From the NCBI GenBank assembly GCA_017410375.1, contig JAFQQW010000049.1:1-41163 (forward strand): 41,163 bases of DNA. The letters are read 5' to 3'. Below the pieces are notes generated by a model. It was not told the DNA's origin. It saw nothing but the letters and a program-made list of their open reading frames with translations, and made no database searches. Of the stretch, positions 15,776-18,957 are shown one piece after another. The first letter of the stretch is position 1, and every line of letters begins with the position of its first letter. The translations under genes were made by a program, and so were the position numbers. Origin of the DNA: Clostridia bacterium. Lineage in GTDB: Bacteria > Bacillota > Clostridia > RGIG6154.

Positions 15776-15782
15776 TTGACTT

Positions 15783-15810
15783 GCCGCAGTTTCGAAAAGG
15801 AAACTGCGGC
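15783..15810 (+). terminator. Hairpin after lysC, probable weak terminator
   Basis: A perfect 11-bp stem (15783-15793 with 15800-15810) and a six-base loop, followed by GGTTTTCT. The T tract is short, so read-through to the next gene, 24 bases on, is possible. No separate promoter for the next gene is evident. Confidence 0.6.
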
Positions 15811-15834
15811 GGTTTTCTATTGTAGGAGGGACAG

Positions 15835-18204
15835 ATGTCCATGCATGAAAAAGAAGAAATCGTTCCGGGCACAGAAGCAGAGAATGAAGAAATGATAACA
15901 AACCCGGACGAGCAGATAACGGATGAAATGTCCGGTGCGGAAGAACCCGAAAACGTGACGGACGAAAATACAGAAGAAACCACGGATGAAGAACAATCCG
16001 AAGAAGAAGCTGAAGTCGAAGAAGCTGAAAGTGAGGAAGAATCCGAAGAGGAAGAAACTGAAGAAGCGTCGGAAGAAGCAGAGGAAGAAGCGGAGGAAGA
16101 GGCTGAAGAGGAGCCGGAGGAAGAACCGCTGCAACCGAAAAAGCCTCGCTCTTTCGGCAAAATCTGGCTGTTGCAGATGGCAGATGTGTTAAACATTCTT
16201 CTGATTCTGGGTGCTGTGGCACTTTTTGTGTTCGGCGGTATGACAGAAGGAGGCTTGCTTTGCTTTGTTTGGCTTTTGCGGACTGTTCTTGGCAGTATGC
16301 GCTTTAAAAAGCTTGAAAAGCAGTTGGCAAAAGAGGGGCTTGATGCCTCGTCACTGTACGAAAAAAACGAAGCGGACAAAAAGCTGTATAAGGGTGTGTA
16401 TATTGCAACCGCCTGCATTATTTTTGTTGTAGGTGCGTTGACAGGACTCTCTTTATATTTCCGCGGTCTGAATTATTCGGTTATTTCGGCATGTGTCGGC
16501 TTTCTGGTACTGGTGTGCCCGACAGAAATTTTGCTGTTCCAAAAGCTGGGACGGGCAGAAGGCAAGCGGATTCTTGCAGAGGGTGGCAGTATAAGCTGTC
16601 CCGGTGCAAGGGCAATCCGTGAAGCGGAATATGTGGTTGTACGGGAATCCGATGTGGTTTCGGACAAGCTTAAATTTGCAAAAATTGATACCTATTACAA
16701 AGCGTTCGGCACAAAGGATTCGTTTATCGGCAGAGACAAGCCTGTTTTCCGAACCATTCTGGAAATGATTGTGCTTGCTTCTGAAATCAAGACAGATGCA
16801 AACGGTTTATATAAAGGAAGCGGTGTGGAACTGGCACTTGTGAACATGGCGGCGGAGCAGGGCGTTTACAAAGAAGCTCTGGATGAAAAATTCAAGCGTT
16901 CCTTTGTGATGCGTTCGGATAATGCAGTTACATTCGGTGTGAAGCTTCCCGAAGGGGTGCGCATGGTTTCCAAAGGTCAGACTGCGACGATTCTTTCTAT
17001 GTGTGACCGTGTTCTGGGAGACGGGGAAGTGCATCCCATCTCGGAAGAAATTATAAAAGAAATCACAGACCGGGCAGAGGCTTACCGCAAAGAGGGGGCG
17101 CATGTTTGTGCCATTTCGTTCAGCGATTATCAGAAGAAACCTAAAAAAGATACAACCGATAAAATGTTCTTAGGTCTTCTGGTTTCCTATTATATGCCCA
17201 ATTCCGCAGGCATTGCCATGATTAAAAAGTATGAAAACGCGGGGCTGAAGCCTTTGCTTTTCAGCCATGCGGATAATGAAAAAACAGCGGCAATGCTTAA
17301 GCTTTATAAAAAAGATTCGGTTTGTATCATTAAAGAAGAAGCAACCGACGAAAATTTAGAGGATACAACGGCATACTGCGGTATGACACCCGAAAAAGAG
17401 CAGTCGGTGCTTGAAGTTTACCGTAAGGCGGGGAAAGCCGTTCTGGTGTTTGTGCAGAAAAAGGAAAACAAGCATCTTTGTCAGAGCACAGATGCGTCTG
17501 TGCTGGTGGGTAAGCGTAGTTGCATTGATGGTTGCGGCGGCACGCTTCGTTACAAGAGCGACATTTTTGATTTACGGAAAAATCTTTCAGCTTATCTTTA
17601 TGCGGAAAAGAAAACAGTAACATTTCTTTTGATTGTCAAGGCGTTTTTACTTGCGTTCGGGCTTTTGTGGAGCGGTATTTCCTTCGCCTGCCCCATGCAG
17701 TTTTACCAGATGCTTTTCTTATCTTTGTTTGTGCCTGTGTGTGCAACGCATATTTTGTATGCACCTTATCGGAAAGAAAAAGGAAAAGCGCCCCGTAAAA
17801 AAGGATTGGTGGTTACGCTTTATACAATTCTGGCATTTTTGGTGCTTGCCCTTTCGTATGCATTCGGTCGGTATACCGTGCCTGCTTTGTCAGCAGATTC
17901 GGCAAAAGTGTTTGCTTCTGCCATGAGCTTTTTGGTGGCAGGCGGTATCCTTTTACTGCTTGCAATACAGAGCATCAGCCATAAAATTCTGCTTAGCTTT
18001 TCGTTTATAACAAGCAAGCAGGCGTGGCTCTGCCTGATTATCGGTGCGGTGCTTACGGTTGCACTGTTTATGGTGCCTGCACTTCGCGCATTGGTTGCAA
18101 TTCCTGCTTTGCCTTACCTGAAGGGCATGTGGATTGGCATATTCTTACTGGTGTTTGCGGTAGCAAGTGATTTGATAAAGTACATTTTAAAAGAAAAGGA
18201 ATAA
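15835..18204 (+). CDS. Degenerate P-type ATPase-like membrane protein with acidic N-terminal extension
   Basis: A 789-residue protein. Residues 1-100 are extremely rich in Glu and Asp and likely disordered. Two helix pairs follow (about 115-150 and 187-234), then a large cytoplasmic region and about six C-terminal helices (590-785). The layout and remnants match a P2-type cation ATPase: LVCPTEILL (226-234) for the P-E-G-L helix, SKGQTATILSMCDRV (379-393) for the K-G-A nucleotide region, MIKKYENAGLKPLLF (462-476) for the P domain, and MTPEKEQSVLEVYRKAGKAVLVF (517-539). But D-K-T-G-T is replaced by SDVVSDK (272-278), M-x-T-G-D by LLFSHAD (474-480), T-G-D-G-x-N-D is absent, and no A domain with T-G-E-S fits between the first two helix pairs. 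Probably a pseudoenzyme. The ATG at 15841 is an alternative start. Confidence 0.7.
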   Translation: MSMHEKEEIVPGTEAENEEMITNPDEQITDEMSGAEEPENVTDENTEETTDEEQSEEEAEVEEAESEEESEEEETEEASEEAEEEAEEEAEEEPEEEPLQPKKPRSFGKIWLLQMADVLNILLILGAVALFVFGGMTEGGLLCFVWLLRTVLGSMRFKKLEKQLAKEGLDASSLYEKNEADKKLYKGVYIATACIIFVVGALTGLSLYFRGLNYSVISACVGFLVLVCPTEILLFQKLGRAEGKRILAEGGSISCPGARAIREAEYVVVRESDVVSDKLKFAKIDTYYKAFGTKDSFIGRDKPVFRTILEMIVLASEIKTDANGLYKGSGVELALVNMAAEQGVYKEALDEKFKRSFVMRSDNAVTFGVKLPEGVRMVSKGQTATILSMCDRVLGDGEVHPISEEIIKEITDRAEAYRKEGAHVCAISFSDYQKKPKKDTTDKMFLGLLVSYYMPNSAGIAMIKKYENAGLKPLLFSHADNEKTAAMLKLYKKDSVCIIKEEATDENLEDTTAYCGMTPEKEQSVLEVYRKAGKAVLVFVQKKENKHLCQSTDASVLVGKRSCIDGCGGTLRYKSDIFDLRKNLSAYLYAEKKTVTFLLIVKAFLLAFGLLWSGISFACPMQFYQMLFLSLFVPVCATHILYAPYRKEKGKAPRKKGLVVTLYTILAFLVLALSYAFGRYTVPALSADSAKVFASAMSFLVAGGILLLLAIQSISHKILLSFSFITSKQAWLCLIIGAVLTVALFMVPALRALVAIPALPYLKGMWIGIFLLVFAVASDLIKYILKEKE

Positions 18205-18207
18205 ATT

Positions 18208-18957
18208 ATGGAACAAAACTTTGCAGAGGGCCGTATTGAAGGCAGAAATCCTGTTCTGGAGGCTTTGAAAAGCGGTAAAACCATTGATAAAATTTATCTT
18301 TTGAAGGGAGAGGGACAAGGCTCTGTGGTCAAAATCCGCTCCCTCGCCAAGCAAAAGAAAATTCCCATTGTGGAACTTGACCGCAAAAAAATGGATGAGA
18401 TGAGTGTGAGCCACAGCCATCAGGGTGTGATTGCACTGGTTTCCCCGGTGGATTATGTGTCGGTGCAGGATATTTTAGACCGCGCCGCAGCAAAAGGGGA
18501 AAAGCCTTTTATAGTGGTGTTGGACGAAGTGGAAGACCCGCATAATCTGGGGTCGATTATAAGAACAGCCAACGGTGCAGGGGTGCACGGCATTTTGATT
18601 CCGAAGCACAGAAGCACAGGCATTACCGCAACGGTGGCAAAGGTTGCGGCAGGGGCTTGCTTTTATACTCCTGTGGCAAAGGTGACAAATTTAGTGCGCA
18701 CCATGGAAGAACTTAAAGAGCAAGGTATTTGGTTTTACGGCGCGGACATGGACGGTGAAAAGACGGTGTTTGAAACCGATTTTTCAGGCGGATGCGGGAT
18801 TGTTATCGGTAACGAGGGCAAGGGCATCAGCCGTCTGGTACGGGAAAAGTGCGATTTTATCGTAAGCATTCCCATGCATGGCGAAATTGAGTCCTTGAAT
18901 GCGTCGGTGTCGGCAGGTATTTTTATGTATCAGGCAGCATACAGCAGAAATAAGTAA
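18208..18957 (+). CDS. rlmB: 23S rRNA (guanosine-2'-O-)-methyltransferase RlmB-like (TrmH/SpoU family)
   Basis: A 249-residue SPOUT methyltransferase. The N-terminal substrate-binding part has EGRNPVLEALKSGKTIDKIYL. The C-terminal trefoil-knot domain shows the three SpoU motifs: DEVEDPHNLGSIIRTANGAGVHG, then VIGNEGKGISRLV, then IPMHGEIESLNASVSAGIFMYQ. It uses S-adenosylmethionine to 2'-O-methylate a ribose; G2251 of 23S rRNA is the family's usual site. It starts three bases after the P-type ATPase-like gene, with AAAGGA inside that gene's end, so the two are probably cotranscribed. Confidence 0.9.
   Translation: MEQNFAEGRIEGRNPVLEALKSGKTIDKIYLLKGEGQGSVVKIRSLAKQKKIPIVELDRKKMDEMSVSHSHQGVIALVSPVDYVSVQDILDRAAAKGEKPFIVVLDEVEDPHNLGSIIRTANGAGVHGILIPKHRSTGITATVAKVAAGACFYTPVAKVTNLVRTMEELKEQGIWFYGADMDGEKTVFETDFSGGCGIVIGNEGKGISRLVREKCDFIVSIPMHGEIESLNASVSAGIFMYQAAYSRNK

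Follow-up and report, generated by a model that had tools for sequence, protein, structure and literature searches.

A putative pseudo-P2-type ATPase beside rlmB in uncultured gut Clostridia

Introduction

What remains of a cation pump once its catalytic residues are gone, and for what might the remainder be kept? The question is raised by a gene of a Clostridia bacterium (assembly GCA_017410375.1, contig JAFQQW010000049.1), which we studied in a window comprising the whole stretch of 41,163 nucleotides analysed. Among P-type ATPases, a textbook family, the catalytic aspartate defines membership, and CATP-1 of Caenorhabditis elegans, a relative of the animal Na,K-ATPase, is proposed to act without pumping. 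A search of openly accessible literature gave no description of inactive bacterial P-type ATPases. The nearest described case is human TMEM94 (ERMA), whose cryo-EM structure has a P-type architecture without TGES and for which no ATPase activity is detectable (PMC12134183). The window protein, predicted to be inactive, shares the architecture and the absence of TGES; unlike it, TMEM94 resides in the eukaryotic ER and has retained A-, P- and N-like domains.

Results

The gene and its neighbours

The features of the locus are collected in Table 1. The frame, described as intact over 789 codons by an earlier reading of the letters without database searches (the sequence-only reading), was confirmed. 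There are two candidate starts: ATG 15835, 4 nt past AGGAGGG, and the in-frame ATG 15841, 10 nt past it, which has the more usual spacing and would make the protein two residues shorter. The proposed tight operon holds toward rlmB, where stop and start are 3 nt apart, but not toward lysC, from which the gene is separated by a strong terminator-like hairpin (dG -24 kcal/mol, z -5.2). Because hairpins are likewise located ahead of the pseudo-pump gene in two genomes of the same genus (G001 and G002), lysC may be transcribed apart from the pseudo-pump/rlmB pair.

Table 1. Features of the pseudo-pump locus in window coordinates
Feature	Position	Strand	Basis or remark
Terminator-like hairpin, gap between lysC and pseudo-pump gene	15781..15812	+	13-pair stem and T-rich tail
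Ribosome-binding site AGGAGGG	15824..15830	+	Sequence
Pseudo-P2-type ATPase gene	15835..18204	+	789 aa; open frame, phmmer, alignment, predicted structure
Glu-rich N-terminal segment, residues 14-97	15874..16125	+	GAA/GAG-rich tandem units; window species only
M1-M2, residues 107-166	16153..16332	+	AlphaFold2 model; weak Cation_ATPase_N end
Linker replacing A domain, residues 167-178	16333..16368	+	Alignments
M4 kink CPTEILL, equivalent of PEGL/PEAL	16516..16536	+	Loss of cation-site Glu; Pro present in each of the 15 dead pumps compared
REAEYVVVRESDVVSD, equivalent of ...ICSDKTGTLTQ	16618..16665	+	Phosphorylation Asp lost; alignment
N domain, residues 278-459	16666..17211	+	VIA-align to 1q3i; domain identities
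Hairpin GVRMVSKGQTATILSMC inside N domain	16954-17004	+	
P-domain remnant without TGD and GDGxND	17212..17562	+	Alignment, model
AGLKPLLF in P-domain remnant	17239-17274	+	
TPEKEQSVLEVYRKAGKAVLV in P-domain remnant	17386-17448	+	
Six predicted C-terminal helices (M5-M10)	17563..18198	+	AlphaFold2, low model confidence; Cation_ATPase_C E 0.003
rlmB	18208..18957	+	3 nt downstream of pseudo-pump gene; constant neighbour of dead and intact pump versions

A P2 pump relative without its catalytic motifs

Searched with phmmer against PDB chains, the window protein (P0001) matched the Listeria Ca2+-ATPase LMCA1 (lmo0841; 6zhf, 9euq and 6zhh) over residues 280-774 with E-values of 5.6e-13 to 5e-12, in a collinear alignment that runs from the N domain through the P domain to the C-terminal helices. 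Similarity is thus significant across the N, P and membrane domains, which places the protein within the P-type superfamily by descent. Single Pfam and NCBIfam P-type models gave sub-threshold matches only, far under the cut-off; the curated thresholds are passed by the homologue in G003, a genome of another genus of the order, and by that in G001 for Cation_ATPase_C.

The remnants by which the sequence-only reading had recognised a P2 pump sit where it placed them: CPTEILL aligns with the M4 kink, SKGQ with the KGA segment, AGLKPLLF with AGIKPVMITGD, and TPEKEQSVLEVYRKAGKAVLV with VSPEHKIRIVNAWQSSGYIVSM. The losses that it listed were borne out as well by alignment. The phosphorylation motif DKTGT is replaced by RESDV (GENDI, REHQV, GKTGI and NDECL in relatives), PEGL/PEAL by PTEI, KGA by KGQ, the TGD motif by SHA and GDGVND by VQKKEN, so that the Mg2+/hinge motifs are gone; the cation-site Glu of M4 is lost within CPTEILL, and the Asp of M6 where NLxTD has become SLFV-. 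Between M2 and M3, about 12-30 residues are left of the A domain that carries TGES in pumps, and the ATP-contacting N-domain residues other than the KG lysine are mostly changed in the alignment.

For an AlphaFold2 model, the input alignment joined the window protein to three relatives and seven canonical pumps. Mean pLDDT was 69.7, mostly 74-92 in the N domain and low in M7-M10. The top Foldseek match was LMCA1 (6zhh, E 1.9e-22), and VIA-align gave Z 22.1 over 518 residues against LMCA1 and Z 21.1 over 173 aa against the isolated N domain of Na,K-ATPase (1q3i). To exclude a fold imposed by the canonical sequences, we built a control model from four dead sequences alone; mean confidence fell to 55, with most of the N/P region at about 65-88, and LMCA1 was again the top match (E 4.2e-21). 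The structure comparison called for by the sequence-only reading thus predicts a HAD-like P domain with an inserted N domain and a P-type helix layout, at low confidence for M7-M10. LMCA1, with the same fold and domain order, is the closest solved relative by both sequence and structure; compared with it, the window protein is without the A domain, DKTGT, TGES, TGD, GDGxND, the M4 Glu and the M6 Asp, and has an additional N-terminal Glu-rich segment. TMEM94 was found neither among the phmmer matches to PDB chains up to E 10 nor among the 50 fold matches listed, which is evidence neither way.

The sequence-only reading had also described an added Glu/Asp-rich tail of about 100 residues. The acidic stretch is N-terminal and almost all Glu (52% Glu, no Lys or Arg). 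Tandem GAA/GAG-rich units with periods of 9, 12, 15 and 24 encode this N-terminus at 15987-16125. Since the segment is absent from all four relatives (G001-G004), it is likely, judging from sequence, to be a recent low-complexity expansion, a species-specific add-on that would lie outside the core function. A role as cation buffer, for which the acidic tail had been put forward, was rejected as the core function, the stretch being confined to the window species.

Relatives in the order

Among six genomes of the window's order, five carry a homologue at the equivalent place (lysC/hom - X - rlmB); in the sixth, G005, with a completeness of 65%, no rlmB was detected. The homologues of G001 (828 aa) and G002 (interrupted at contig ends) come from the window's genus, those of G003 and G004 from other genera. 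The losses are graded: G003 retains the whole A domain, G001 and G002 half of it, and the window protein none. The G003 protein (LMCA1, E 1.2e-71; E1-E2_ATPase, E 7e-35) has TGIS, GKTGI and TYD in place of the motifs, and GDGxND is absent. G004 holds a remnant of about 600 aa from which part of the N domain, too, is missing; it was recognised by profile comparison (E 2.6e-7), a weak Cation_ATPase_C match and its place after hom and before rlmB. Stop and start of the pseudo-pump gene and rlmB abut or overlap. Common losses and the rlmB neighbourhood, which the sequence-only reading had proposed to look for in orthologs, are therefore present in the relatives of the order. A Cation_ATPase_C search of the order returned all of these genes and, beyond them, just two intact P2 pumps, one in the window's own genome (G000, C24) and one in G004 (C20); in G003, 98% complete, no intact P2 pump was detectable. 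A search for related loci with P0001 alone gave no match. An assembly or local frameshift artefact was rejected, as the losses are common to separate genomes with open frames.

Dead and intact pumps beside rlmB

Across 292 genomes of the class, the places of P-type matches and of rlmB were compared; in 40 of these genomes the DNA upstream of rlmB was read. A search of the order to which family f46 belongs then gave, directly upstream of rlmB, 13 dead pumps in f46, two of which run off a contig end, and the two intact pumps of G302 and G295 described below. In place of DKTGT, genus g60 has GKRGTLT and similar, while g92 and g152 have DKGGLLT or DKGKMLT, so that the Asp survives there together with the TGD motif. 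Wherever the regions concerned were assembled and could be aligned, every dead version has lost GDGxND, the Glu of TGES, the M4 Glu and the M6 Asp; in the window's genome and in G004 the A domain itself is missing.

Intact pumps linked to rlmB were found in five genomes of three families: f19 (G052, G076, G122), f46 (G302, genus g187) and f74 (G295). In G052, G076 and G295 the pump lies between lysC and rlmB, and in G122 and G302 directly upstream of rlmB. They are homologous to the window protein along the length and share its place, usually after lysC, but have all catalytic and cation-site motifs. The sequence-only reading would have taken orthologs with DKTGT as a sign of an assembly or local decay problem. 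Such pumps do occur at the rlmB place; as they belong to other genera and families, they date the loss and do not indicate an assembly problem.

In this non-exhaustive sample, only four families show the linkage of pump and rlmB: f1, which is the family of the window, f19, f46 and f74. In 40 further genomes, mostly of families not covered before, no pump was found within the 4-5 kb read at rlmB, and elsewhere lysC and rlmB often adjoin directly. Besides rlmB, no conserved partner gene was found.

Other membrane-protein genes occur at the same place. A gene named by eye as ComEC-like lies directly upstream of rlmB at L107 (7562-9640, between lysC and rlmB), L184 (2480-4531) and L180 (2525-4549), in Clostridia that include the pump-less genus g170 of f46; the place upstream of rlmB seems prone to membrane-protein genes. 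In G302, two genes at L235 2900-4986 that by eye resemble a Trk/Ktr-type K+ uptake pair stand between lysC and the intact pump. The genome G233, with a dead rlmB-linked pump, also has on C174 two tandem P-type ATPases with intact motifs (L229 1306-4131 and L231 1369-3978).

Selection and conservation

By simple Nei-Gojobori counts, in which many dS values exceed 1.5 and the larger distances are rough, dN/dS among the dead pumps of f46 is 0.06-0.36 in g60 and 0.15-0.16 in g92, whereas the intact P2 pumps of g92 give 0.08-0.13, and rlmB 0.04-0.16; single pairs give 0.06 at 85% identity and 0.19 at a dS of 0.94. The dead f46 relatives are thus under purifying selection despite their lost catalytic residues, as is expected of pseudoenzymes. 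Saturation of synonymous sites makes dN/dS unmeasurable in the window's genus; there the complete genes keep open frames at this divergence, and change is uneven over the three codon positions (0.60/0.44/0.69). On this combined evidence, the proposal that the gene is maintained and not decaying stood.

Constraint has moved in the dead pumps relative to intact ones. Intact pumps are most conserved in the P domain (P1 0.83, P2 0.67, against 0.41 for N), whereas in the window's genus N is highest at 0.37 and the other parts lie at 0.12-0.31 (M3-M4 0.16, M1-M2 0.22, M7-M10 0.20). In f46, conservation is about equal in N and P2 and highest in the N-terminal segment. Over 15 dead pumps, 13 of the 36 shared columns fall in N, several of them around the KG hairpin, where two Gly and one Cys are kept in all 15.

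Origin and number of losses

Ancestral Clostridia may have had a P2-type (Ca2+-ATPase-like) pump between lysC and rlmB, which would have lost catalysis and cation binding in place while the protein was retained. There were probably at least two deaths in place, since a single one needs a revival or an exact replacement in the intact f46 member G302. A third death, splitting f46, is suggested by the different residues lost in g60 and in g92/g152 and by the rlmB tree, which puts G302 beside g92 and g152 (support 81). In the pump tree the dead rows all join by long branches; taken singly, each dead f46 group can be placed with intact G302 without conflict (AU p 0.63; already joined, support 60). 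A recent origin by duplication of C24, the P2 pump elsewhere in the window's genome, is not supported: the intact same-locus pumps of other families fit better, although long branches prevent a firm placement.

Discussion

Our preferred reading, to which we give a probability of about 0.45, is that the gene is a pseudo-pump, a P2 pump of the lysC-rlmB interval that died in place and is kept as a membrane-anchored N-domain scaffold or sensor. The protein would no longer hydrolyse ATP or pump. A ten-helix membrane anchor would present the N domain with its KG hairpin to the cytoplasm, where it may serve some partner as a scaffold or as a ligand or nucleotide sensor. The KG hairpin of pumps holds nucleotide; nucleotide binding is doubtful in the window protein, because the ATP-contacting residues of its N domain are mostly lost. 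The partial loss of the N domain in G004 weakens a role centred on that domain there. For the rlmB-linked dead pumps of uncultured gut Clostridia as a whole, a new, non-pumping job is probable.

Other readings place the function elsewhere or deny it. The ten-helix bundle, with the M4 kink kept, could be an ATP-free passive conduit or lipid-interacting protein, as has been suggested for TMEM94, where lipid is found in a P-type-like bundle and ATPase activity is undetectable (PMC12134183). The M4 proline, present in 15/15 dead pumps, suits this idea, but in the window's genus conservation is low in the membrane parts (0.16-0.22, against 0.37 for N), and we regard it as unlikely. The gene could also be relaxed and decaying, its frame open only through translation coupled to rlmB, whose start abuts or overlaps the pseudo-pump's stop; in the window's genus the protein diverges very fast (27% identity between the window and G001, against 92% for lysC), and domains are lost stepwise, down to about 600 aa in G004. 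Decay with mere translational coupling is unlikely in f46, given a dN/dS of 0.06-0.36, near that of intact pumps. In the window's lineage the complete genes are open at saturated synonymous divergence and an N domain is predicted confidently even from four dead sequences, which leaves decay unlikely overall.

It is also unlikely that the protein serves an intact P2 pump of its own cell as regulatory subunit or dominant heterodimer partner. Intact P2 pumps do lie elsewhere in the genomes G000, G004, G116, G216 and G304, and the P-type pump MgtA is reported as a dimer (PMC10925321), but dead pumps occur with no detectable intact P2 pump in G003 and in genus g60 (four genomes, 93-97% complete). 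The subunit role raised by the sequence-only reading is thus not supported as a general one. That the protein still pumps with non-canonical catalytic residues is very improbable: the DKTGT Asp and TGD survive in g92/g152, yet the loss of GDGxND, the TGES Glu and both cation-site residues in every dead version in which these regions could be aligned, and the missing A domain in G000 and G004, speak against activity.

Beyond the preferred reading of a kept, non-pumping N-domain protein, we put forward tentatively, at somewhat less than even odds, that separate clostridial lineages turned a P2 pump locked to rlmB into a non-pumping protein, on two occasions or more and perhaps on three, with the N domain as the basis of a new function common to them, which would make these proteins the first described bacterial family of pseudo-P-type ATPases. 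Annotation pipelines would miss P0001, which falls under all cut-offs, or label its relatives cation pumps. Dead versions and, in sister genera, intact ones at a fixed gene position form a natural series from working pump to pseudo-pump, and this series would show which parts of a pump serve without pumping, an issue under debate for TMEM94 and for animal roles that are independent of pumping.
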